From: Qipengyuania pelagi | Lineage (GTDB): Bacteria > Pseudomonadota > Alphaproteobacteria > Sphingomonadales > Sphingomonadaceae | Direction: 5' to 3' | DNA: 64,000 nt | Assembly (NCBI RefSeq): GCF_009827295.1 | Contig: NZ_WTYD01000002.1 | Coordinates: 434,001 to 498,000, forward strand | Shown: positions 32,329-43,570 of the stretch, piece after piece | Position numbering within the stretch: position 1 is the first letter of the stretch | Layout: the number at the start of each line of letters is the position of its first letter | Program-made: the position numbers and the translations under genes | The notes under the pieces: generated by a model | Database searches by the model: none | What the model was told of the DNA's origin: nothing | The model's input: only the letters and a program-made list of their open reading frames with translations

Positions 32329-32571
32329 ATGAAGAAAATTGCTTTTGCATCGATGGCCGCGCTCGGCCTGACGCTCGCCGCCTGTGACAGCCCGCAGGAA
32401 AACGCCATGGAAGACCAGGCGGAAACCATGGAAGACAATCGCGACGCGATGGTCAACGACATGGAAGCTTCGGGCGAAATCACCGACGAGCAGGCCGACG
32501 CCATGGACGATCAGACCGATGCCATGGAAGAGCAGATGGAAGAACAAGCGGACAATATGGACACCCCGTAA
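32329..32571 (+). CDS. Small acidic lipoprotein with Met/Asp/Glu repeats
   Basis: An 80-residue lipoprotein. A signal peptide ends with the lipobox LAAC (Cys21). The mature part is nearly all acidic and helical, with a repeating MED/AMDDQTDAM pattern that could form a coiled coil. A strong ribosome-binding site (GGGGAAGAAG) precedes the ATG at 32329, and a strong terminator follows. No function is known. Two similar acidic lipoproteins occur at 36034-36676, suggesting a family in this organism. Confidence 0.78.
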   Translation: MKKIAFASMAALGLTLAACDSPQENAMEDQAETMEDNRDAMVNDMEASGEITDEQADAMDDQTDAMEEQMEEQADNMDTP

Positions 32572-32594: not shown

Positions 32595-32627
32595 AAGGGC
32601 CCCGGAGCGATCCGGGGCCTTTTTTTG
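32595..32627 (+). terminator. Rho-independent terminator after the small lipoprotein gene
   Basis: A 9-bp stem (GGCCCCGGA/TCCGGGGCC) with a short loop, followed by a run of eight T. It directly precedes the structured repeat that starts at 32631. Confidence 0.92.
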
Positions 32628-32630
32628 TTC

Positions 32631-32959
32631 CGCATCCCCTCCGGGATGCGATGTCCTCGCGCCTTCGGCGCTGCGGGCGGGCGGTCGCCCTTGCGGACCC
32701 TGCGGGTCCGAGCTCCGCCGCCAGGCCTCAAGGCCGGGAATGGTCCGGTCCGCAACCAGCGGACCGCAAGGCCACGCGGCCGCCCCGCAGGTGCCCCGGA
32801 GCGAAGCGCCGGGATCAGCACCGAGGACGAACCCGCGGAGGCGGGTTCGCTTTACAAAAACCGGACCAGCGGACCGCAAGGCCACGCGGCCGCCCCGCAG
32901 GTGCCCCGGAGCGAAGCGCAGGGATCAGCACCGAGGACGAAGCCACGGAGGTGGCTTTG
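32631..32959. repeat. Structured intergenic repeat, copy 1 (with internal duplication)
   Basis: A 330-base element made of successive hairpins: 32631-32650 (CGCATCCC stem, CTCC loop), 32659-32671, 32679-32690, 32695-32709, 32747-32765, 32770-32781, and two GGAG-loop hairpins at 32828-32849 and 32938-32959. It is closely related to the copy at 43102-43365. The part 32755-32832 recurs at 32865-32942 with one difference, a 110-base period. Several stems differ from copy 2 by compensating changes. The strand of any transcript is unknown. Small frames in it are not considered genes. Confidence 0.85.
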
Positions 32960-32963
32960 AAAA

Positions 32964-33905
32964 CTAAACAGCCTTCGCGCCGCTCCCTCGTCCGCCTCTG
33001 AGCGTATATTCCAGCGTTCCCGGATGCAGCACGTCATCGACATCGATCACGGCGGTGTTGGCGTAAGTGAAGCCGGGATCGAGCGTGCGGTAAAGCCGGT
33101 CGAAATCGCGCTCCACCGTCTGCTGATAGAGATCCTCGAAGCTCTTGATCACGAAATAGGTCGGTTGGAGGTCGCTGATGACGTAATCCGTGCGCATGAC
33201 ACGGTCGACATTGAGCATGATGCGATTGGGGCTTTCCGCCTCCACCGCGTAGACCACCTCGGTCGGCCCCGAAAGGATGCCCGCCCCGTAGGCGCGGATA
33301 TCGCCGGGCGCTTCCTGCAACAGGCCGAATTCGACCGTATACCAGTAAAGCGATCCCAGCGCCTTCAACCGGTTGTGGCGCATCGCCTTCCATCCGGCCT
33401 TGCCGTATTCCTGCATGTAATCGGCATAGACCGGGTCGGTCAGCATCGGCACATGGCCGAACACGTCGTGGAAGACGTCGGGTTCCTGAATGTAATCGAA
33501 CGTTTCGCGCGTGCGGATGAAATTGCCCGCCGGGAAGCGGCGGTTGGCGAGATGCCAGAAGAAGACATGGTCGGGGATCAGCATGGGGACGGGCACCACG
33601 CTCCACCCGGTCAGTCTGCCCAGTTCCGCGCTCAGATCGCCGAAATCGGGCACGCCGCCGCGCCCGAGATCGAGCTTTTCGAGTCCCTGCATGAACGCGG
33701 TCGCCGCGCGGCCGGGAAGCACCTCCATCTGGCGCGCAAACAGATCGTTCCAGATCGCGTCGTCGTCCGAATCGTATTCGGTCTGCTTGGGTTCCAGCCA
33801 GTCTTCGCCGAGGTGGTCGGGCCGCTTAAGCGGAGCGGTGAACACGCCTTCGGGCATTTCGGGAAGGCGGGTGAAATCCTGTTCGGGTTCAGCGAGTGTA
33901 GCCAT
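32964..33905 (-). CDS. phhA: Phenylalanine 4-monooxygenase
   Basis: A pterin-dependent aromatic amino acid hydroxylase converting phenylalanine to tyrosine. It has 313 residues. The iron ligands are visible as His146 and His151 in PDVFHDVFGHVPM and Glu192 in YWYTVEFG. No regulatory ACT domain is present, as usual for the bacterial enzyme. The ATG at 33905 gives a sensible N-terminus (MATLAEPEQ). Its stop codon lies only five bases from the last hairpin of the structured repeat, which may act as its 3' hairpin. The pterin recycling gene phhB is not adjacent. Confidence 0.96.
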   Translation of the reverse strand: MATLAEPEQDFTRLPEMPEGVFTAPLKRPDHLGEDWLEPKQTEYDSDDDAIWNDLFARQMEVLPGRAATAFMQGLEKLDLGRGGVPDFGDLSAELGRLTGWSVVPVPMLIPDHVFFWHLANRRFPAGNFIRTRETFDYIQEPDVFHDVFGHVPMLTDPVYADYMQEYGKAGWKAMRHNRLKALGSLYWYTVEFGLLQEAPGDIRAYGAGILSGPTEVVYAVEAESPNRIMLNVDRVMRTDYVISDLQPTYFVIKSFEDLYQQTVERDFDRLYRTLDPGFTYANTAVIDVDDVLHPGTLEYTLRGGRGSGAKAV

Positions 33906-33965
33906 GCGAGCGATGTAAGCCCTTGCGCTCGAAAAACCAAATCTCCGATCCGAACGGGCCGGATT

Positions 33966-34820
33966 TCAGGCGAGCGTGGCGGAGGCCTGCGTGACCTGCC
34001 GCCCGTCTGCGGCGAACGCCGCCAGTTCGAGAGCATCGTCCTTCTCGCGCAAGGTCAGATGCAGTGGCTCGTCCGCGATCGCCGGGCTGAGACCACGGAA
34101 GCGGAAGCTCGTTAGTCGGTTCTCGCCGCATCGTTCGGCGGCAAGCTGCAACAACAGGCTGGCGGTCAGCGGGCCGTGCACGACCGGCCCGCGATAGCGT
34201 TCGACATCGCGCGCATAGGGCGCATCGTAATGGATGCGATGGGTGTTGAAGGTCAGCGCGGAATAGCGGAACAGCAGGCGCGGGTCGGGCGTGAGCGCGC
34301 GATGCATGGTCCAGCCGCTCGCATCGAACGCCTCCGGTCCCGGTTCAGGAGGGGAGAGCGGCGCGTCGCCCGCCAGCGCTTCGAGATAGACGAGAGTCTG
34401 CGTCTCGCTCACCGCGAGCGCGCCGTCCGCCGCGGTCTCGTGCTCGACCTCGACGAAGACCATCCGGCCGCGACTGCCCGATTTATCGGTGATGGAGGCG
34501 AGACGGCTGACCCGCTCGACCGTCGCGCCGACCGTGAGCGGCGCATGGAAGCGGATCGCGCTGCCCGCCCACATCCGGCGCGGCAGGGGCACGGGCGGGA
34601 GGAAGCTCGCCGCGCTGTCGTCGCGCGCCGGGTGGCCGTCCTCGCCCAGCCGGGACGTGCGCGCCTCGGGCGTGCAGAGGCAGAAGTGAATGCCCTGCGG
34701 CATCGCTTCGTCCGAAGGCGCATCGCGATCGAAGGTCGCGCACCAGCGGGCCGCCAGCGCCGCGTCCAGCCGATCGGCGGACCGCTGCTCGCGCCCGATC
34801 CAGTCGGCGAAATCCTTCAC
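33966..34820 (-). CDS. MaoC/HTD2-like acyl dehydratase
   Basis: A 284-residue double hot-dog-type protein. The N-terminal half is of the FAS1-like dehydratase type (LPPVPLPRRMWAGSAIRFH). The C-terminal half has the hydratase region FNTHRIHYDAPYARDVERY and VVHGPLTASLLLQL. This resembles itaconyl/mesaconyl-C4-CoA hydratases and mitochondrial HTD2-like enzymes. It ends just upstream of phhA and starts 14 bases after the acyl-CoA dehydrogenase stop, so both enzymes probably work on one acyl-CoA pathway. Confidence 0.82.
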   Translation of the reverse strand: MKDFADWIGREQRSADRLDAALAARWCATFDRDAPSDEAMPQGIHFCLCTPEARTSRLGEDGHPARDDSAASFLPPVPLPRRMWAGSAIRFHAPLTVGATVERVSRLASITDKSGSRGRMVFVEVEHETAADGALAVSETQTLVYLEALAGDAPLSPPEPGPEAFDASGWTMHRALTPDPRLLFRYSALTFNTHRIHYDAPYARDVERYRGPVVHGPLTASLLLQLAAERCGENRLTSFRFRGLSPAIADEPLHLTLREKDDALELAAFAADGRQVTQASATLA

Positions 34821-34834
34821 TGGTCAGCCGCGCA

Positions 34835-36037
34835 TCACAGCGCCGCGTATTCGCGCAGCATATGCTTGGCGATCTGCAATTGCAGGATCTGGGTGGTGCC
34901 TTCGTAGATGCGATAGATGCGCGCATCGCGGAAGAACCGCTCGGCATCGTATTCCGCCAGATAGCCCGCCCCGCCATAGATCTGCACCACGCGGTCGACC
35001 ACCCGGCCGCACATCTCGCTGGCGAACACCTTGAAGGCGGCGGCCTGCTTGATCGTGCTTTCGCCCGCATCGGCGCGCGCCGTCACGTCCGCCATCATGC
35101 ATTCGGCGGCGTAGATCTCGGTCTCACTTTCGGCGAGCATCTGCTGGATCAGCTGGAAGTTCGCGATCGGTTCGCCGAACGCCTTGCGCTCGGTGGCGTA
35201 GCGCAGCGCGGAATCGAGCGCGCGGCGGGCATAGCCGGTGCTCGCCGCGCCCACCGAAATGCGTCCGTTGTCGAGGCTCATCATGGCAAAACGGAAGCCC
35301 TGCCCGGTCTCTCCGCCCAAGAGCGCGTCGCCGGGCACATGCACGTCGTCGAGCATCACGTCGGCGATGTGCGATCCGGCCTGGCCCATCTTCTTGTCCG
35401 GGCTGCCGGTGGAAACGCCGGGCGTGTCCATCGGCACGATGAAGGCGCTGACATGCGCGTTCTTGGGCAGCGCATCCTTCTCGGTGCGCGCCATGATCAG
35501 CGCGACATCGGCATGGGGCGCGTTGGTGATGTAGCGCTTCGATCCGTTGAGGATCCAGCCGTTACCGTCGGGATCGGGCTTTGCCGTGGTCGCCATCGCC
35601 GCCGAATCGCTGCCCGATCCCGGCTCGGTCAGGCCGAAACAGGCGATCTCGCCCGCCGCGATGCGCGGCCACCATTCGTCCTGCTGGGCCTTGGTCCCGC
35701 CATTCTTCAGGGCGGAATTGAACATCCCGATATTGATCGAGAAGATCGATCGGAAGGCGGGCGCGGCATAGCTCATCGTCTTCACGATCTTGGCGTATTG
35801 CGTCATGTTCAGCCCGGCGCCGCCGTGATCTTCGGGCACGGAGAGGCCGAACAGGCCCATGTCCTTCATCTCGTCGAGGATATCGTCGGGCACGCGATCG
35901 TTCTCGATCACGTCCTTTTCCGCCGGGATCAGCCGTTCGCGGACATAGCGTTCGAGCTGTTCGTGGAACTGGGCGAAAGTGTCCGCGTCCATGCCCGGAT
36001 TGCGGGCGGGGGCGGGCTTGGTGGCCGGTGCGTTCAT
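34835..36037 (-). CDS. Acyl-CoA dehydrogenase
   Basis: An FAD-dependent dehydrogenase of 400 residues introducing a double bond into an acyl-CoA. The family blocks are present: LTEPGSGSDSAAM, the flavin region GSKRYITNAPHADV, and the C-terminal RIYEGTTQILQLQIAKHML, where the Glu is likely the catalytic base. Substrate chain length is not predictable. The start overlaps the stop of an upstream lipoprotein gene by four bases (ATGA), an unusual neighbour for this enzyme. The downstream acyl dehydratase is separated by 14 bases. Confidence 0.93.
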   Translation of the reverse strand: MNAPATKPAPARNPGMDADTFAQFHEQLERYVRERLIPAEKDVIENDRVPDDILDEMKDMGLFGLSVPEDHGGAGLNMTQYAKIVKTMSYAAPAFRSIFSINIGMFNSALKNGGTKAQQDEWWPRIAAGEIACFGLTEPGSGSDSAAMATTAKPDPDGNGWILNGSKRYITNAPHADVALIMARTEKDALPKNAHVSAFIVPMDTPGVSTGSPDKKMGQAGSHIADVMLDDVHVPGDALLGGETGQGFRFAMMSLDNGRISVGAASTGYARRALDSALRYATERKAFGEPIANFQLIQQMLAESETEIYAAECMMADVTARADAGESTIKQAAAFKVFASEMCGRVVDRVVQIYGGAGYLAEYDAERFFRDARIYRIYEGTTQILQLQIAKHMLREYAAL

Positions 36038-36318
36038 TCATTCTCTCCCGTAGTCTGGCCCATATCCTGGCCCATATCCGCTTCGTCCGTGCGCTGTTCG
36101 GCCCCGTCCTGTTCGGCCCCGTCCTGTTCGGCCCCGTCCTGTTCGGCCAGAACGTCGGCGGGGATGCGGCGCTCTTCGATCATCTGAGCCGCCTCGTCGA
36201 GCGCGCGGGCCTCGCCCACCGTCACGCCGCCGGGGCCCGGATCGTTGTCCGACGGGCCGCAGGCGGCGAGGAGGGCGGTTATCGCGAGGACAGGCCCCAG
36301 AACATGCGCAGAGCGCAC
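36034..36318 (-). CDS. Small acidic lipoprotein with EQDGA tandem repeats
   Basis: A 94-residue lipoprotein. The signal peptide ends with the lipobox LLAAC. The C-terminal half has the unit EQDGA three times plus DMGQ twice, encoded by tandem 15-base and 12-base repeats (plus-strand unit CTGTTCGGCCCCGTC, 36094-36150; and CCATATCCTGGC, 36060-36082). Because both units are multiples of three, copy-number change would keep the frame. It lies 4 bases after a second lipoprotein gene and overlaps the acyl-CoA dehydrogenase. Function unknown. Confidence 0.7.
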   Translation of the reverse strand: MRSAHVLGPVLAITALLAACGPSDNDPGPGGVTVGEARALDEAAQMIEERRIPADVLAEQDGAEQDGAEQDGAEQRTDEADMGQDMGQTTGENE

Positions 36319-36322
36319 CGGC

Positions 36323-36676
36323 CTAATCCTGATTCATCGCGTCCATCGCCGCAGCGGCCGTGGCGGCGGCATCGTCGCCTTCATCCTGGATCGACTGCTG
36401 GCGCGCGGCCTCGGCAGCGGCGGCAGCCTCGGGGTCGACCGTCTGCGTGGTGCTCGGAACCACCGGATCGGGCATCGAGGCCTGCGGGTCCTCGACCGGC
36501 ATCGCATCGACATTCTCGAGCGCCTCATTGGCTTCGATCTCGACCGTTTCGGTGTCGGTTTCATAGGCGGCATCGTCGGAATCGCTGCACGCGGCGAGCG
36601 CGAGCGGAGCGGCGATCACGGCGGCGACCAAGGCGCAGGTGCGGGCGGGCGTGTGGGAAGTCAGGCGGAATTTCAT
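36323..36676 (-). CDS. Acidic Ala-rich lipoprotein
   Basis: A 117-residue lipoprotein with a signal peptide ending LALAAC (Cys30). The mature part is highly acidic (DTETVEIEANEALENVD), then Pro-rich, then an alanine-rich helix ending AAAMDAMNQD. The ATG at 36676 is chosen; the frame continues far upstream antisense to recQ, which is not coding. It is the first gene of a probable four-gene operon (two lipoproteins, acyl-CoA dehydrogenase, acyl dehydratase). Function unknown. Confidence 0.75.
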   Translation of the reverse strand: MKFRLTSHTPARTCALVAAVIAAPLALAACSDSDDAAYETDTETVEIEANEALENVDAMPVEDPQASMPDPVVPSTTQTVDPEAAAAAEAARQQSIQDEGDDAAATAAAAMDAMNQD

Positions 36677-36829
36677 CGGTCTCTCCAAAACAGGCGGGCG
36701 GCGCGAGGCGACCCTGATAGTGTGCTGCGCTGTTAAAGCGCCACGCGGCCATAGGGGGCAAGGGGAAAATGGCCGAAAACACCCGCCCGGCCCTTCGCGC
36801 GTGCGGCGATCTCTGGCAGGGCGGGGCCG

Positions 36830-38650
36830 ATGGACGACCTTCTCGCCCCGGATCGCCCCAGCACGGATGCGCTGGATGGAAAGCTCGACGATGCGCGCGC
36901 CGAATTGCGCCGCACCTTCGGGTTCGACGATTTCCGCGGGCGACAGGCGGCGGTGGTCGAGCGTGTGCTGATGGGCCGGTCCACGCTGGCGGTGATGCCG
37001 ACGGGCGCGGGAAAGTCCCTGACCTATCAACTGCCCGCCACCATGCTGGCGGGGACCTGCGTGGTGGTCAGCCCCCTGATCGCGCTGATGCACGATCAAT
37101 TGCGCAGCGCGCGCGCCAACGGCATCCGCGCCGCGACCCTCACCAGCGCCGATGCCGACTGGCGCGAGACGCAGGATGCGTTCCGCGCGGGCGAGCTGGA
37201 TCTGCTCTACGTCGCGCCCGAACGCGCCAGTCAGCCGCATTTCCGCGAACTGCTGAGCGCCGCGCCGCTTTCGCTCTTCGCGGTGGACGAGGCGCATTGC
37301 GTTAGTGAGTGGGGCCATGATTTCCGCCCCGATTACCGGATGCTGCGCCCGATGATGGACGCGTTTCCAGACGTCCCGCGCCTCGCGCTGACCGCGACCG
37401 CCGACCGGCAGACCCGCGCCGACGTCATGGCGCAGCTGGGGATCCCGGAAGACGGCCTCGTCCTCGCCGGGTTCGACCGGCCCAATATCCGTTACGCGAT
37501 CACGCCGCGCGACAATCCGGTGCGCCAGATCGCGGGGATCATGCAGGATCGCCCCGGCCCCGGTATCGTCTATGCGCCCACGCGCCGCAAGGTGGAGGAT
37601 ATCGCCGAAAAGCTCGCCAGCGCGACCGGGCGTCCCGTCCTGCCCTATCACGCGGGGCTTCCCGCCGAGGAGCGGGCGGACAACCAGGCGCGCTTCGTCG
37701 CGAGCGAGGATATGGTGATCGTCGCCACGATCGCCTTCGGCATGGGGATCGACAAGCCCGACGTGCGCTTCGTCGCCCATGTCGGCGTGCCGAAATCGAT
37801 CGAGGCCTATTATCAGGAAACCGGCCGCGCGGGGCGTGACGGCGATCCGGCGGGCGCGGTGATGCTGTGGGGGGCGAGCGATTTCGCCACCGCGCGGGCG
37901 CGGCTGGAGGAAGTGCCCGAGGATCGCCGCATGGCCGAACGCCAGCGGCTGGACGCGCTGGCGGGCCTGGTCGAGACCGCGCAATGCCGCCGCGCCATCC
38001 TGCTGCGGCATTTCGGCGAGGACCCGCCCGAGAGTTGCGGCAATTGCGACAATTGCCTCGATGCGCCCGGCGTGACCGATGCGACCGAACTGGCGCGCAA
38101 GCTGCTCAGCGCGGTCTACCGCACCGGGCAGAGTTTCGGCATGGGTCACCTCGAGAAGGTCCTCACCGGAACCGCCGACGATCGTGTCCGCCAGCGCGGG
38201 CATGACACTCTGTCCGTGTTCGGGATCGTCGGTGGCGAGGAGGCGGGGCTGCTGAAGCCGGTCGCAAGGGCGTTGCAGGCCCATGGCCACCTCGTCGCGA
38301 ACGATCACGGCGGTCTGGCTTTGGGCGGAGGGGCGCGCGAAATCCTGAAGGGGGAGCGCGAGGTGGCGATCGTCATTCCTCCCAAGCGCGAACGCAGGGG
38401 ACGGCGCGGTGGGGGCGCGACGCCCAATCCGGTCGGCAATCCCCTGTTCGAAGCGCTGCGCGCTTTGCGCAAGGAACTGGCCGAGGAAGCGGGCGTGCCG
38501 CCTTATGTGATCTTCCACGATTCGACCTTGCGCGAAATGGCGCTGGCGCGGCCCGATACGCTGACCCGACTCGGCCAGATCGGCGGCGTGGGCGCCAAGA
38601 AGCTGGAAGCGTACGGAGACCGCTTCCTGCGCTGTATCGTCGAGAATTGA
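36830..38650 (+). CDS. recQ: ATP-dependent DNA helicase RecQ
   Basis: A 3'-5' superfamily 2 helicase of 606 residues used in recombination and fork repair. The Walker A is at residues 58-63 (TGAGKS), motif II is DEAHCVSEWGHDFRPDYR, and the RecQ zinc-binding region has CGNCDNCLDAPG. The winged-helix domain and a C-terminal HRDC domain (GVPPYVIFHDSTLREMA) are complete. The gene is divergent from the lipoprotein operon, with 153 bases between. Confidence 0.96.
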   Translation: MDDLLAPDRPSTDALDGKLDDARAELRRTFGFDDFRGRQAAVVERVLMGRSTLAVMPTGAGKSLTYQLPATMLAGTCVVVSPLIALMHDQLRSARANGIRAATLTSADADWRETQDAFRAGELDLLYVAPERASQPHFRELLSAAPLSLFAVDEAHCVSEWGHDFRPDYRMLRPMMDAFPDVPRLALTATADRQTRADVMAQLGIPEDGLVLAGFDRPNIRYAITPRDNPVRQIAGIMQDRPGPGIVYAPTRRKVEDIAEKLASATGRPVLPYHAGLPAEERADNQARFVASEDMVIVATIAFGMGIDKPDVRFVAHVGVPKSIEAYYQETGRAGRDGDPAGAVMLWGASDFATARARLEEVPEDRRMAERQRLDALAGLVETAQCRRAILLRHFGEDPPESCGNCDNCLDAPGVTDATELARKLLSAVYRTGQSFGMGHLEKVLTGTADDRVRQRGHDTLSVFGIVGGEEAGLLKPVARALQAHGHLVANDHGGLALGGGAREILKGEREVAIVIPPKRERRGRRGGGATPNPVGNPLFEALRALRKELAEEAGVPPYVIFHDSTLREMALARPDTLTRLGQIGGVGAKKLEAYGDRFLRCIVEN

Positions 38651-38703
38651 GACACGCGGTAAAATTATCGTGCCGGTAAGTCTCGCCGCGCTACAGTGAC
38701 GAC

Positions 38704-39651
38704 ATGAGATCTCGCACCCGTATCGCCGCCCCTGCCCTGATCGCGCTCGCCGCCGTCACGCTCCCGCTTTCCGCCCAGCAACGGGCGCCGTTTTCCGTCG
38801 CCGAGACCGGGCGGAGCTACGCCTCGCTTCAGGACGCGGTCGATGCGATCGGCGCGGGCACGGGCACGGTGGTGTTCGCGCCGGGCACCTACAATGAATG
38901 CGCCGTGCAGCGCGCGGGCACGATCACCTATCGCGCGATGGAGCCGGGTTCGGCCACGCTTTCCGGCGTCGCCTGCGAAGGCAAGGGCGCGCTGGTCCTC
39001 GGCGGCGAAGGGGCGACGGTGATCGGCCTCGTCTTCTCGGATATCGCCGTGCCCGACCGCAACGGGGCGGGCATCCGCCTCGAAAGCGGCGATCTCGCCG
39101 TGACGCAGAGCTGGTTCCGCGACAGCGAGCAGGGCATCCTGACCGCGCACGATCCGAACATTCATCTGCGCATCGACAAATCGACCTTCACGCGGCTCGG
39201 CACCTGCGAGGGCGACGGGGGCTGCGCCCATTCGATCTATACCGGCGAAATCGCCGAGACCGCCGTCACGCGCAGCCGCTTCGAAGCGGGCACGGGCGGG
39301 CATTACCTGAAGAGCCGCGCGGCGCGCACGATCGTCGAGGATTCCAGCTTCGACGATGCGGCGGGGCGCGGCACGAATTACATGATCGACCTGCCCAATG
39401 GCGGCAATGGCCGGATCGTGCGCAACTGGTTCGTCCAGGGGCGCGACAAGGAGAACTGGTCCGCCTTCATCGCGGTGGGGGCGGAAGAGGGGAATTACTC
39501 GTCCGACGGCCTGGTCATATCGGACAACGACGCCCGCCTCGTCCCCGGCCTCAGGCGCAGCCCGGCCTTCATCGCCGACTGGACGGGCGACCGCCTGTCG
39601 ATCGCGAACAACGAGCTGGGCGCGGGCCTGAAGCCGTTCGAAAGCAGGTAG
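38704..39651 (+). CDS. Exported right-handed beta-helix repeat protein
   Basis: A 315-residue protein with a signal peptide (about residues 1-21, ending LPLSAQ). The first part resembles pectin-lyase/NosD-type beta-helix domains: SYASLQDAVDAIGAGTGTVVFAPG, then repeated short strands such as GATVIGLVFSDIAV and DNDARLVPG. No catalytic signature of a pectinase is recognised. It is probably periplasmic or surface-located. It starts 54 bases after recQ and converges with ribA. Confidence 0.75.
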   Translation: MRSRTRIAAPALIALAAVTLPLSAQQRAPFSVAETGRSYASLQDAVDAIGAGTGTVVFAPGTYNECAVQRAGTITYRAMEPGSATLSGVACEGKGALVLGGEGATVIGLVFSDIAVPDRNGAGIRLESGDLAVTQSWFRDSEQGILTAHDPNIHLRIDKSTFTRLGTCEGDGGCAHSIYTGEIAETAVTRSRFEAGTGGHYLKSRAARTIVEDSSFDDAAGRGTNYMIDLPNGGNGRIVRNWFVQGRDKENWSAFIAVGAEEGNYSSDGLVISDNDARLVPGLRRSPAFIADWTGDRLSIANNELGAGLKPFESR

Positions 39652-39660
39652 GGGCGTAAG

Positions 39661-40731
39661 CTACGGCAGCAGATGCCCCGCCCGGTCGCGCTTGGTGGCG
39701 AGGTAGCGGGCGTTGTGCGGGTTGTCGGGCAGGGCGTGGGGGACGCGTTCGGCAACCGTCACGCCCTCTGACTCCAGCGCCGCGACCTTGGCGGGATTGT
39801 TGGTCATCAGCCGGATGCTGGAGACGCGCAGCAGGTCGAGGATGCGCGCGGCGGTCGGAAAATCGCGCGCTTCGTCGGGCAGGCCCAGACGGGTGTTCGC
39901 GTCCACCGTGTCGTGGCCCTGATCCTGCAAGGCGTAGGCGCGCAATTTGTTGACGAGGCCGATCCCGCGCCCCTCCTGCCGCATATAGAGCAGGACGCCC
40001 CAGCTCCCGCGCCGCGCTTCGTCCGCCATGGCGTGGAGCGCGGCGTCCAATTGCGGGCCGCAATCGCATTTGAGGCTGCCGAGCACGTCTCCGGTCAGGC
40101 ATTCAGAGTGGAGGCGCACGAGGGGCGCGATGCCGGAGCGGCGCTGTCCGATCACCAGCGCGACGTGTTCGCGCGTGTCGGCGGGGCTGCGAAATGCGAT
40201 AATCTCGGCCTGTTCGAACGCCTCGACGGGCAGGCGCGCGCGCGAGGCGATGATGAGGTTCGCCGGATCGGCATAGGCCCGCGCATCGGCCAGCGTCAGT
40301 GCGACCGGCGGCTCCGCCCCCTCGGGTGCGACCATGAAGGCGGGGAGGATGCCCGCGATCCGCGCGAGGTCGAGCGCGGCGCGCGCCTGATCCGCCCAAT
40401 CGCCGTGCGGCAGCGCCTTGAACGGTCCCTTCATCGGATGCGCCAGATCGAGCGCCGGGTCCGCCACCGCCAGCGCCGCATCGCGCGAAAACCGCTCGGC
40501 CCCACGCAACAGCACCGGCTCCCCGGGAATCGCCGCCTCGCGCTGATTGGCGAGCTTCAGCGTCGCGGCGCGGCTGGCGGAGATCAGCAGCGTTTCGGCA
40601 GCCAACGCGTCGTCGTAGCACGTCTCGATCGGTTGCAGGACCGGCCCGCCATCGAGCTGGATCGGCCAGCCATGGCGCAGCGCATCGACGCCCTGTGCCG
40701 CGCGACGCGGCGAAGGTTCGGCCTCGCTCAG
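39661..40731 (-). CDS. ribA: GTP cyclohydrolase II
   Basis: The first enzyme of riboflavin synthesis, which opens the imidazole ring of GTP. The zinc site SECLTGDVLGSLKCDCG has the three cysteines, and RQEGRGIGLVNKLRAYALQ is the GTP-binding and catalytic region. An N-terminal ~150-residue extension replaces the usual RibB (DHBP synthase) part, which is typical of sphingomonads. The only well-placed start is a CTG at 40731 overlapping the xth stop (CTGA) with ACGGAA upstream, giving 356 residues. An ATG at 40842 would overlap xth by 115 bases and is less likely. Confidence 0.88.
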   Translation of the reverse strand: MSEAEPSPRRAAQGVDALRHGWPIQLDGGPVLQPIETCYDDALAAETLLISASRAATLKLANQREAAIPGEPVLLRGAERFSRDAALAVADPALDLAHPMKGPFKALPHGDWADQARAALDLARIAGILPAFMVAPEGAEPPVALTLADARAYADPANLIIASRARLPVEAFEQAEIIAFRSPADTREHVALVIGQRRSGIAPLVRLHSECLTGDVLGSLKCDCGPQLDAALHAMADEARRGSWGVLLYMRQEGRGIGLVNKLRAYALQDQGHDTVDANTRLGLPDEARDFPTAARILDLLRVSSIRLMTNNPAKVAALESEGVTVAERVPHALPDNPHNARYLATKRDRAGHLLP

Positions 40732-41537
40732 AGCGCGAATTCCGTGACGAGGGGGACGTGATCGCTGGGCTTTTCCCAGTCGCGCGCGCCTTCGTGGACA
40801 TGGTGGGCGACCGCCTGCGCGGCCAGTTCGGGGCTCGCCCACATATGGTCGAGCCTGCGCCCGCGATCATTGGCTTTCCAGTCCTTGGACCGATAGCTCC
40901 ACCAGCTGTAATAGCGTTCGGGCGCGGCAATGTGCTGGCGCCCGATATCGGCCCAGCCATGCGCGTCCATGAAGCGTTGCAGCGTGTCGACCTCGATCGG
41001 CGTGTGGCTGACGACCTTCAGCAATTGCTTGTGGCTCCAGACATCGCTTTCGAGCGGGGCGACGTTGAAATCGCCCACGATCAGCGTCGGGCGGTCGACC
41101 GTGTCGGCCCAGCGGGTCATGCGTTCGAAGAAGTCGAGCTTCTGGCCGAATTTCACATTCTGCTCGCGGTCGGGAATGTCGCCGCCCGCGGGCACGTAGA
41201 CGTTCTCGACGATCATCCCCTGATGCGCCGGATCGGTCAGTTCCACCCCGATATGGCGCGCCTCGCCATTGTCCTGCCAGTCATGCCTGGAAAAATCGCG
41301 GATCGGCACCTTCGCCACGGTGGCAACGCCGTGATAGCCCTTCTGGCCGTGCACGGCGAAATGCTCGTAACCGAGCGCGCGGAACGCCTCGTAGGGAAAC
41401 TGGTCCTCCTGGCACTTGATCTCCTGGAGGCAGAGCACGTCGGGCGCCTGTTCGGTCAGGAAGCGTTCGACGATCGGCATACGCAGCCGCACCGAGTTGA
41501 TGTTCCAAGTCGCGACGGAAAGGGTGGGGGAGGTCAT
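40728..41537 (-). CDS. xth: Exodeoxyribonuclease III
   Basis: An AP endonuclease/3'-5' exonuclease for base-excision repair; 269 residues from the ATG at 41537. EEP-family motifs are clear: VATWNINSVRLR, LCLQEIKCQ (metal-binding Glu), VGDFNVAPLESD and the terminal PSDHVPLVTEF with the catalytic His. It belongs to the XthA-type branch. The stop overlaps the likely start of ribA, indicating an operon. Confidence 0.95.
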   Translation of the reverse strand: MTSPTLSVATWNINSVRLRMPIVERFLTEQAPDVLCLQEIKCQEDQFPYEAFRALGYEHFAVHGQKGYHGVATVAKVPIRDFSRHDWQDNGEARHIGVELTDPAHQGMIVENVYVPAGGDIPDREQNVKFGQKLDFFERMTRWADTVDRPTLIVGDFNVAPLESDVWSHKQLLKVVSHTPIEVDTLQRFMDAHGWADIGRQHIAAPERYYSWWSYRSKDWKANDRGRRLDHMWASPELAAQAVAHHVHEGARDWEKPSDHVPLVTEFAL

Positions 41538-41637
41538 GCGGGCGGACTTAGGCACAGGCCGCGCGGGGGGCAAGTTTCACCGTTTCGCCACACGCGAATG
41601 TCATTTAGGGCGGATCGGACAGTCGAGGAGAATGAGG

Positions 41638-43065
41638 ATGGGGTTTGGTCGCAAGGCGGCATTGGTCGCAAGTGTGTTCACGCTGACGCTGGGTGCCTGC
41701 ACCACCGCGCAGGGGGGAACGGCGCCGGTCGCTTCGGCACCGCCCGCCGCTCCGGCACAGGCCAAGGCCAAGAACGTCATCCTCTTCATCGGTGACGGGA
41801 TGGGGATCTCGACGATCACCGCCGCGCGCATCTATGCCGGGCAGAAGCTCGGCAAATCGGGCGAGGAGCACGTGCTCCCGTTCGAGACGTTCGAGAACGT
41901 CGCGCTGGTGAAGACCTACAACACCAACGCCCAGACCCCAGACAGCGCGGGCACCGCCACCGCGATCCATTCGGGCGTGAAGACCAAGATCGGGATGCTC
42001 GGCATGGGGCCGGGAGCGATCACCGGCGATTGCGCCAGCGGGCGGGGGCATGAATTGCCGCTGCTCGGTGAAGAGGTGAAGCGGCGCGGCCTCGCGCTCG
42101 GCATCGTCAGCACCGCGCGGATCACCCATGCGACGCCCGCTTCGGTCTATGCCCGCAGCGTCGATCGCAATTGGGAGGCGGATATCGGCATTCCCGAAGG
42201 CCAGCGCGGGCAGATGTGCCGCGATATCGCGCTGCAATTGGTCGAAAGCGATTTCGACCTCGCGCTGGGCGGCGGGCGCGCGGCCTTCTTCGGAGCGGAC
42301 GGCAGCGTCCAGCGCATGGCGGCGGATGGCGACCTGCCGCGCGACTGGGCGGCGCGCACCGGCGGCAGCTATGTGAGGACGGCGGAGGAGCTGGCGGCGG
42401 CCCCTGCGGATCGCCCCGTGCTGGGCCTCTTCTCGCCCAGCCACATGACCTACATGGTCGACCGCAAGGCGGACACGACCGAGCCGACACTGACCGACCT
42501 CACCGCCAGTGCGATCGCGCGCCTGAAATCCGATCCGCAGGGCTATTACCTGATGGTCGAAGGCGGGCGAATCGATCACGGCCACCATGCGGGGCAGGCG
42601 GGCTATGCGCTGGAGGAAGCGGTCGAGTTCGCGCGCGCGATCCAGTACGCGATCGACAACACCGATCCCGAAGAGACGCTCATCATGGTCACCGCCGATC
42701 ACAGCCACGTCTTCACGATCGCGGGCTATCCCCGGCGCGGGAACGACATTCTCGGCCTGGTCCATCCGCCCGAAGGCGGCGGCGAGGACGGCGATAGCGG
42801 CGACGGCCCCTCGTTGGACTCGGACGGCAAGCCCTACACCACGCTCGGTTACGCCAATGGCCCCGGCGCGGTGAAGGGCGAACGCGGCGTGCCCGAAACG
42901 GGCGTGATGGCCCGCCAGCAATCCCTCGTCCCCATGGGATCGGAAACGCATGGCGGCGAGGATGTCGCGCTGTTCGCCCAAGGCCCCGGCGCCGAGCGCG
43001 CGCGCGGCGTGATCGAGCAGAACAGGATCTACGATATCATCCGCGCGGCGTTTGGGTGGGAATGA
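41638..43065 (+). CDS. Alkaline phosphatase (PhoA type), lipoprotein
   Basis: A zinc/magnesium phosphomonoesterase for phosphate scavenging. From ATG 41638 it has 475 residues; GAGGAG seven bases upstream supports this over the ATG at 41632. The signal peptide ends LTLGAC, a lipobox. The metal-binding FIGDGMGIS, the nucleophile Ser103 in PDSAGTATA, DHGHHAG and TADHSHVF are all present. A loop near residue 380 (PPEGGGEDGDSGDG) is very acidic and Gly-rich. It lies on the opposite strand between xth and the lolA region, next to the second copy of the structured repeat. Confidence 0.93.
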   Translation: MGFGRKAALVASVFTLTLGACTTAQGGTAPVASAPPAAPAQAKAKNVILFIGDGMGISTITAARIYAGQKLGKSGEEHVLPFETFENVALVKTYNTNAQTPDSAGTATAIHSGVKTKIGMLGMGPGAITGDCASGRGHELPLLGEEVKRRGLALGIVSTARITHATPASVYARSVDRNWEADIGIPEGQRGQMCRDIALQLVESDFDLALGGGRAAFFGADGSVQRMAADGDLPRDWAARTGGSYVRTAEELAAAPADRPVLGLFSPSHMTYMVDRKADTTEPTLTDLTASAIARLKSDPQGYYLMVEGGRIDHGHHAGQAGYALEEAVEFARAIQYAIDNTDPEETLIMVTADHSHVFTIAGYPRRGNDILGLVHPPEGGGEDGDSGDGPSLDSDGKPYTTLGYANGPGAVKGERGVPETGVMARQQSLVPMGSETHGGEDVALFAQGPGAERARGVIEQNRIYDIIRAAFGWE

Positions 43066-43101
43066 ATTCAAGGTTTGGTTTTCCGCGCGTTTGCTATTTT
43101 C

Positions 43102-43365
43102 CGCACGCCATCCGGCGTGCGATATCCTCGCGCCTATCGGCGCTGCGGGCGGGCGGTCGCCCTTGCGGACCCTGCGGGTCCGTACTCCGCGACTAAGGCT
43201 TAAAGCTGGGAATGGTCCGGTCCGCGACCAGCGGACCGCAAGCGCGACCGCGCGCCCGCAGGTGCCCCGTAGCGAAGCGAAGGGAATAGCACCGAGGACG
43301 AACCCGCGGAGGCGGGTTCGAAAAACAAACCTATTACCGAGAACGCTCGCGCGGAGGCGCGAGCG
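43102..43365. repeat. Structured intergenic repeat, copy 2
   Basis: Related to copy 1 at 32631-32959, without the 110-base duplication. Hairpins: 43102-43121 (CGCACGCC stem, ATCC loop), 43130-43143, 43151-43162, 43167-43181, 43219-43237, 43242-43253 (GCGCG-AC-CGCGC), and two GGAG-loop hairpins at 43299-43320 and 43344-43365. The first, sixth and fourth GGAG-type stems differ in sequence from copy 1 but keep pairing. It is followed 18 bases later by the strong terminator of the candidate RNA. Confidence 0.85.
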
Positions 43366-43383
43366 AAACACCAAGGCGCAAAA

Positions 43384-43417
43384 AACCCTCGTGCCGGGGG
43401 CATTGGCACGAGGGTTC
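43384..43417 (-). terminator. Strong Rho-independent terminator
   Basis: A perfect 12-bp stem (AACCCTCGTGCC / GGCACGAGGGTT) with a nine-base loop. On the minus strand it is followed by a T run (A run at 43380-43385 on the plus strand). It would end a transcript from lolA or from the candidate RNA upstream on the minus strand. The plus-strand flank is also T-rich, so it may work both ways. Confidence 0.88.
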
Positions 43418-43570
43418 CTTCTTGCGTTCGTCACGCTTGGACAGAACGGATATCTGTGAAGATCTGGGCAACAGGGGGGAACCCGTCTTCATCCGTCCTG
43501 TGAGTTATGTTCTAGGCCCGCCGGGCTTGCTGATGGATGAACATCCGCGCTCCGACTGACGCTTCACAGC
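43384..43570 (-). ncRNA. Candidate structured RNA, possibly 6S-like
   Basis: Non-coding segment between the lolA stop and the terminator at 43384. On the minus strand it carries, in order, GGATGTTC, GCAAGC, GGGCC on the 5' side and GGGTT, CCTG, TTGC, ATATCC on the 3' side, resembling the closing-stem blocks of bacterial 6S RNA, the regulator of sigma70 RNA polymerase. The CGGAT/ATCCG ends, GCAA/TTGC and outer CGTCA/TGACG segments can pair into a rod. The internal loop region is shorter than in E. coli 6S, so the identity is tentative. A weaker hairpin with GTTTTG at 43554-43581 leaves a plus-strand RNA possible. Confidence 0.4.

Follow-up and report, generated by a model that had tools for sequence, protein, structure and literature searches.

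A dispersed family of mosaic multi-hairpin repeats of REP-like kind in Qipengyuania pelagi and its relatives

Two copies of a multi-hairpin element lie in a 64,000-nucleotide stretch of the Qipengyuania pelagi genome (the window), and their stems differ in both halves together. The original prediction, made from these copies, took such compensating changes to mean that structure is maintained, as in a functional RNA or a DNA cruciform, which raises the question of what kind of element this is. A cruciform formed between the two arms of the element is not supported, and the pattern of dispersed copies, location 3′ of genes, inverted dimers, and heterodimers is that of repetitive extragenic palindromic (REP) sequences and not of a single-locus functional RNA. 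Specifically, the repeats are a mosaic multi-hairpin variant of REP-like kind, and this variant is itself new. As judged from sequence matches, the repeats are nearly confined to a single alphaproteobacterial family (Erythrobacter, Qipengyuania, Porphyrobacter, Altererythrobacter, and kin), and they are apparently undescribed so far.

Design of the arm and selection for structure

The unit of the family is the arm, which is about 90 nt long and composed of a T-rich 12-mer and four hairpins, A to D; a full element consists of two inward-facing arms and measures about 240 bp. Read inward, the T-rich 12-mer is followed by hairpin A, 0–4 nt, TCCTCG, hairpin B, TGCGGGC, hairpin C, TTGC, and hairpin D, and the three boxes between the hairpins are near-invariant. 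Hairpin A has free stem letters and a loop that is mostly NTCC, and hairpin B comes in several module types, mostly of 12 to 36 nt. Hairpin C has the pattern GNNC-RGTC-GNNC. In 255 arms found by regular expression, which include a few chance matches, its stems are mainly GGGC/GCCC, GGCC/GGCC, GCGC/GCGC, and GCCC/GGGC, with GGTC or AGTC as the loop. The T-rich stretch spans −12 to −3 from hairpin A in 199 flanks, and conservation ends at −13.

Among 183 elements, 42 contain an inward pair of arms, 1 an outward pair, and 10 direct repeats only. The strict arm pattern returns the other 130 as single arms, a count that includes some whose partners have altered boxes and are missed. The TTGC ends of paired arms are 64–72 nt apart in 29 of the 42 pairs.

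The local hairpins are under selection for structure rather than letters. In an alignment of 12 left arms of the Q. pelagi genome, 92.4% of stem cells are paired and 11 of 24 stem pairs carry both-sided changes. Control stems slid by 1–3 columns have 34–44% of cells paired (maximum 43.7%) and 0–4 doubly changed pairs, and 500 shuffles match the real arms zero times on four of five measures and once on the fifth. Covariation was then assessed with a phylogeny-aware test resembling R-scape, though not R-scape itself, which uses a FastTree tree and 60 null alignments that preserve the number of changes per column. From the 255 arms, 174 were used (156 distinct; 51 columns, 1275 column pairs); 49 were dropped for lack of the TCC anchor at hairpin A, 27 for a hairpin C other than 12 nt with NGTC or NTTC, and 5 on account of box or locus. 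Anchoring on TCC and RGTC favors well-formed arms, and the test covers hairpins A and C. The top nine of the 1275 column pairs are all stem pairs. Eight of these exceed every null pair (six in hairpin A, two in C), and the ninth has an E value of 0.27; low scores and little variation mark the other three stem pairs, of which one is in A and two are in C. This excess, in arms from many genomes, together with the stem pairing of the 12 arms, bears out the early claim that structure and not letters is kept.

An arm–arm ladder or cruciform as the conserved structure was rejected on three grounds. A changed box in one arm has no counterpart in the other, loop C bases show no covariation between arms, and two arms from one element resemble each other less than arms taken from different elements. 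Minimum-energy folds nevertheless bring the boxes of opposite arms into pairing. A kissing interaction between the two C loops (GGTC with GACC) was also rejected, as the loop bases are independent between arms (11, 6, 6, and 3 of 26 pairs).

Arms of one element avoid equal stems. Both arms carry the same stem C in 3 of the 42 pairs, where 11.5 would be expected (P 0.001); three or more of the pairs are off register in hairpin C and were counted as different, and their true stems differ too. The deficit recurs where both loops are RGTC (1/26 against 7.8 expected), without Q. pelagi and its near relative G008 (2/30 against 8.2, P 0.004), and when each genome contributes a single pair (median P 0.01; 28 genomes, a number that includes individual named loci). 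Whole-arm likeness is 0.677 within an element and 0.708 between elements, and none of 5000 shuffles is as low. By part, within-element unlikeness has P values of 0.0008 for stem C, 0.02 for D, and 0.03 for B, and hairpin A alone shows no significant effect (P 0.055). According to a 2013 REP survey, REPs prefer heterodimers, and escape from SbcCD-type cleavage has been suggested as the reason (PMC3733652). Because this survey already reports the preference, the heterotypy rule as such is a feature in common with REPs and no novelty of this family.

The two strands of an arm are not equivalent in their mismatches. In arm sense, single mismatches in hairpin A stems are A·C in 20 cases and G·T in 6 (P 0.009), and in hairpin D they are A·C in 26 and G·T in 12 (P 0.03), which means that the outward-reading strand tolerates G·T pairs. 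Arms running with the mRNA and arms running against it have similar A·C:G·T ratios (11:5 and 11:4), and the 67 single arms located in tandem gaps are split evenly between the gene strands (33:34). Because the ratio is similar for both mRNA directions and the gene strands are balanced, the strand evidence leans weakly toward one DNA strand being read, over a role in mRNA.

Distribution, gene context, and turnover

BLAST with copy 2 returns 31 matches in the 3.03-Mb Q. pelagi genome. R1, a covariance model of the left arm built from the 12 Q. pelagi arms, has 26 matches there at E values up to 0.01. At this threshold R1 matches 21 of 31 genomes, comprising 19/19 of the genus and 2/12 of other families; L103, the one other-family match examined among the latter, departs from the canonical arm. 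With the threshold at 1e-4, R1 matches 91 of 249 sampled genomes of the family, a lower bound owing to strict filters, and 45 of 96 genera. In a class-wide sample, 4 of 240 genomes match among the rows listed: Q. pelagi itself, one other family member, and two other-family genomes that match weakly (E 6e-5 and 1e-4). A pattern scan of an 84,980-species collection yielded at least 120 stretches, and among 80 titles listed, 67 name Erythrobacteraceae or genera of that group (Erythrobacter, Porphyrobacter, Qipengyuania, Altererythrobacter, Croceibacterium, and kin) and 13 are broader or name something else. Stretches L140 and L156 resemble chance; L147 and L161 look genuine despite the titles Alpha- and Gammaproteobacteria of their metagenome-assembled genomes. 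In Croceibacterium xixiisoli (L196:2361-4700), arrays of the single core unit, several without hairpin A, lie in three successive intergenic gaps and adjoin another repeat of GTCATGCCGGACTTGATCCGGCATCC type. A blastn comparison with 72,556 plasmid and 50,697 phage records gave no match to the copy-2 element at E 1e-5, and carriage by phage or plasmid was rejected on this basis.

The elements follow closely on stop codons and are seldom located in divergent gaps. Genes were called with a purpose-written codon-usage caller that was checked by eye on the window. The 183 elements fall into 91 tandem, 48 convergent, and 11 divergent gaps; a further 20 lie inside a gene call, at least one being a false arm, and 13 at the edges of loci. 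Among 387 element-free gaps of at least 60 nt, 245 are tandem, 55 convergent, and 87 divergent. Convergent gaps are thus in excess among elements (48/150 against 55/387, P 8e-6) and divergent gaps are depleted (11/150 against 87/387, P 2e-5). With the element edge set 35 nt outside the outermost box match, the median distance to the nearest stop codon is 3 nt (n = 139). Both window copies suggested a terminator hot spot, which was rejected: intrinsic terminators are not enriched beside arms (12/232 arms against 13/300 element-free gaps; 9/55 in convergent controls). By eye, two elements of the Q. pelagi genome (L017, L005) adjoin the 3′ side of tRNA-like sequences.

Copies are gained or lost at orthologous gaps, and arms are swapped and duplicated at fixed addresses. 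The gene flanking the copy-1 gap is present in 60/60 genomes of the genus searched, and 30 loci were fetched; gap length was measured from the stop codon of the presumed lipoprotein gene to presumed phhA, and G008 and the farther relative G297 are 92% and 91% identical in the gene. Full elements occupy this gap in Q. pelagi (389 nt; left, right, right), G008 (405 nt; left, left, right), and G297 (320 nt; left, right). G315 has a different single arm in 170 nt, missed by the regular expression and seen by eye, and the other 26 loci have gaps of 54–133 nt in which no arm was found; a match in L264 farther upstream is due to chance. For the copy-2 gap, 30 of 60 genus loci were fetched and the phosphatase was found in 18. 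An arm pair occupies the gap in Q. pelagi (517 nt) and G008 (472 nt); the gap is short (209–248 nt) in nine loci, among which G297 (209 nt) is empty. L312 (376 nt) has one arm and L314 (351 nt) a decayed one, and the gaps of L334, L336, and L337 (307–384 nt) were left out of the arm reading. A cousin element occupies the copy-2 gap of L320 (382 nt) and L328 (377 nt), from G296 and G005. It has similar T-rich and A-rich ends and hairpins with a TCC loop, and its interior is one long near-perfect palindrome without TCCTCG or TGCGGGC boxes.

Of 21 Q. pelagi sites compared with G008, 13 match on both flanks (about 87–96% identity), one matches on one flank, and 7 are unmatched, a shared fraction biased by the choice of G008 stretches for carrying arms. 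At many of the 13 shared sites, arms are replaced, duplicated, or lost between the two genomes. Single units persist at S15, S17, S18, and S20, and in these persisting units the stems change in both halves together. Hairpin C of copy 2 is GGGC/GCCC in Q. pelagi and GCGC/GCGC in G008. Two of the seven unmatched sites were examined further: S4 is empty in G008 and G297, and at S12 (hisB-hisH) an arm is found in G297 and none in G008. At site S8 (L008, about 1365-1470), a left arm lies beside a GTCATTGCGAGGAGCCGCAGGCGACGAAGC repeat resembling a CGTC-REP, and the G008 ortholog has a right arm at the position of that repeat.

Addresses also recur across genera. Of 165 elements with both neighbors, 83 lie at 32 junctions represented two or more times, a count that ignores the relatedness of the genomes, and arm types mostly differ at the 14 recurrent junctions listed. 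The hisB-hisH junction carries arms of different types, sometimes in the other orientation, in L018, L149, and L235. The junction at an Obg-like gene carries arms in L005, L087, L108, L119, L127, L225, and L237, with differing types and sometimes orientation. The recurrent neighbors, which we take to be HisB, Obg, RsfS, and RnpA, were rejected as partner genes, since recurring addresses explain them.

The two copies in the window

Copies 1 and 2 each sit between convergent genes. Copy 1 is flanked by a plus-strand gene ending at 32571, presumably for a small lipoprotein, whose terminator was placed by eye at about 32597-32626, and by a minus-strand gene (32964-33905) that we take to be phenylalanine hydroxylase (phhA). 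Copy 2 lies between a plus-strand gene ending at 43065 and a minus-strand gene, taken to be an alkaline phosphatase and a LolA-like protein. Both elements fold better than 200/200 dinucleotide shuffles (copy 1 without its extra arm, z −5.9; copy 2, z −7.8). Both copies are present as first described; the ranges given for them, 32631-32959 and 43102-43365, hide a second right arm in copy 1 (32863-32959) and the remnant of an arm end in copy 2 (43338-43365).

In copy 1, the T-rich end TTTTTTTGTTC (32620-32630, plus strand) is merged with the T-run of the preceding lipoprotein-gene terminator. The left arm, also on the plus strand, comprises hairpin A, CGCATCCC-CTCC-GGGATGCG (32631-32650), box 1 TCCTCG (32654-32659), a short-type hairpin B (32660-32671), box 2 TGCGGGC (32672-32678), hairpin C GGGC-GGTC-GCCC (32679-32690), box 3 TTGC (32691-32694), and hairpin D (32694-32710). 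The center (32711-32745, plus strand) contains the small hairpin GGCC-TCAA-GGCC (32724-32735). The right arm (32746-32849, minus strand) consists of D (32746-32766), C (32770-32781), box 2 (32783-32789), a long-type B (32790-32821), box 1 (32822-32827), and A (32828-32849), and is followed by the A-rich end CTTTACAAAAACC (32850-32862, minus strand). The second, tandem right arm (minus strand) has a truncated D, C at 32880-32891, box 2 at 32893-32899, B at 32900-32931, box 1 at 32932-32937, and A at 32938-32959; G008 and G297 have a single right arm at its address.

Copy 2 starts with a T-rich end (43090-43101, plus strand). Its left arm (43102-43182, plus strand) comprises hairpin A, CGCACGCC-ATCC-GGCGTGCG (43102-43121), box 1 (43125-43130), B (43131-43143), box 2 (43144-43150), C (43151-43162), and D (43166-43182). 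The center (43183-43217, plus strand) holds GGCT-TAA-AGCT (43197-43207). The right arm (43218-43320, minus strand) consists of D (43218-43238), C (43242-43253), box 2 (43254-43260), B (43261-43292), box 1 (43293-43298), and A (43299-43320), and ends in the A-rich AAAAACAAACC (43321-43331, minus strand). The remnant (minus strand) consists of CGAGAA and a hairpin A identical to the right-arm hairpin A in the G008 ortholog.

The paired changes first noticed between the copies are real, with one G·T pair in the small central hairpin of copy 2. For the sixth hairpin, GGCC-ACGC-GGCC (32770-32781) is correct for copy 1; copy 2 reads GCGC-GACC-GCGC (43242-43253) and not GCGCG-AC-CGCGC, and this register of a 4-bp stem and a 4-nt loop is kept family-wide. 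Open reading frames of 111 and 135 codons cross the elements (32625-32960 and 43052-43459) and are almost certainly spurious genes.

Known repeats and rival explanations

The family resembles the REP/BIME/REPIN repeats, which carry a GTAG tag and are linked to RAYT transposases, in its dispersed extragenic copies, hairpins, inverted dimers, and position downstream of genes. In the wide sense of the term it is REP-like, even though 20 of the 183 elements overlap with called genes and the strict pattern leaves 130 as single arms. Among REPs, singletons are remnants and heterodimers are preferred in many families (PMC3733652, PMC6006769). REPs are one 20–40 bp palindrome, whereas the arms have four hairpins in about 90 nt, near-invariant boxes between them, and T-rich ends. 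GTAG or GTGG was found 0–2 nt 5′ of hairpins B, C, and D in 0/250 arms in arm sense (the letters occur elsewhere in some), and none was seen by eye before hairpin A or in the outward sense among the arms listed.

CGTC-tagged REPs, as described in PMC3733652, occur in Alphaproteobacteria including Sphingomonadales and apparently lack a dedicated transposase. They have one 8–9 bp stem starting with AT, carry a CGTC/TGTC/CCTC tag, and usually have a CCA tail. They share with the arms the class, the lack of a dedicated transposase, and inverted dimers, with heterodimers in several CGTC families; unlike them, the arms have three more hairpins after A. The outer pairs of hairpin A are mostly C-G or G-C, unlike the AT start of CGTC REPs; counted from the loop, its eighth pair is one of these two in 144/156 arms. 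CGTC straddles the foot of hairpin A in only 74/250 arms, and the arms lack the CGTC-REP design. RepRanger (PMC12306157) lists 3,055 REPs and 348 RITs in Erythrobacter cryptus, with the column order taken from the heading; the part of this source at hand gives counts alone, without a description of an arm family. The RIME/ABC repeats have a mosaic design. They come from rhizobia, which belong to another bacterial order, and are likened here by description only: intergenic repeats of common sequence and secondary structure and unknown function (PMC2573895). Structured RNAs in Rfam share the covarying multi-hairpin fold. Rfam has no match in the window at gathering score, and in eight element-bearing loci nothing matches up to E 0.5 except sX6, below its threshold (E 0.48). 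No description of the family was found in the open-licence PubMed Central literature, in line with the first impression that it is not a recognizable named family. A CsrA/Rsm-titrating RNA (GGA loops on the outward strand) was rejected, as PF02599 has no match in the Q. pelagi genome and 3/14 controls are positive.

The reading preferred here, at a probability of roughly one half, is a REP-like, non-coding dispersed family whose single-stranded DNA hairpins are read by a protein and whose modules are renewed by ectopic recombination. A protein would recognize the folded single strand by hairpin shape and box letters, much as RAYT transposases read REP hairpins. The strand read would most likely be single-stranded DNA during spread or repair, and an enzyme other than RAYT would read it. 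Ectopic recombination between copies would then renew the modules. Arms of one element would stay unlike because a long perfect inverted repeat is unstable, which is the explanation given for REP heterodimers in PMC3733652, and any influence on host mRNA 3′ ends would be secondary.

Several observations weigh against this reading. RAYT-type Y1 transposases (Y1_Tnp) have no match in the Q. pelagi genome (5/14 controls positive), and a hand comparison shows no association of RAYT-type genes with elements (11/91 element-bearing against 25/158 other genomes); RAYT was rejected as the carrier on both counts. No gene lies between inward arms 250–4500 nt apart in the loci of the 183 elements, and an autonomous gene-bearing form was rejected for these sampled loci. 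No target-site duplication is visible at S4, where Q. pelagi was compared with G008 and G297 at the one usable junction. The S12 difference is more likely loss than gain, because the arm is present in the farther relative G297 and absent from the nearer G008. The asymmetry between strands is small and rests on related, non-independent rows, and hairpin C has no asymmetry (3:2). Finally, the position beside stop codons fits a role in mRNA equally well.

That role, in which a transcribed hairpin chain protects mRNA against 3′ exonucleases or signals where transcription ends and RNA hairpins are selected, is a less likely alternative. It draws on the stop-codon proximity and the depletion in divergent gaps, on the strong RNA folds of both copies, and on similar roles proposed for REPs (PMC3733652). 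It does not sit well with single arms in either gene orientation, a wobble asymmetry that follows the arm and not the mRNA strand (small numbers), the placement of copy 1 past the terminator belonging to one of the two flanking genes, the lack of enrichment beside intrinsic terminators, or the absence of the element from most orthologous gaps read. A mobile family addressed by its hairpins and free of RAYT, in which a host enzyme would read hairpins and boxes on one single-stranded DNA strand and insert copies after stop codons, module exchange would rewrite them, and equal stems would be forbidden, is conceivable but doubtful.

Template switching inside quasi-palindromes is established, and compensation might arise without function as a by-product of replication, through gene conversion between inverted stem halves. 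The swapping of whole modules at orthologous sites and the nearly perfect stems with free letters agree with this explanation. It is improbable, as it would preserve neither the T-rich end nor the boxes nor the RGTC loop in hairpin C, all conserved outside the stems, and gives no reason for the arms of an element to avoid equal stems C. An ordinary miniature inverted-repeat transposable element of a DDE transposase, with the T-rich end and hairpin A as terminal inverted repeats and the inner hairpins as passengers, would account for the sharp T-rich ends, the empty sites at orthologous gaps, and the cousin element with similar ends and another interior in the copy-2 gap of two genomes. This is very unlikely, however, given that no target-site duplication was seen at the one usable junction, inner boxes and a stem C conserved as strongly as the ends, and single arms far commoner than pairs.

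REP-like repeats are widespread, and this family bears on what spreads the non-RAYT types and on the purpose of their hairpins; according to PMC3733652, the preference for heterodimers has no obvious explanation. The family also accounts for spurious open reading frames in these genomes. Its long arms, its boxes between free stems, its occupied, empty, and rewritten sites, and its rule of unlike arms make possible direct tests of which strand is read, which reader acts, and why inverted dimers must differ.

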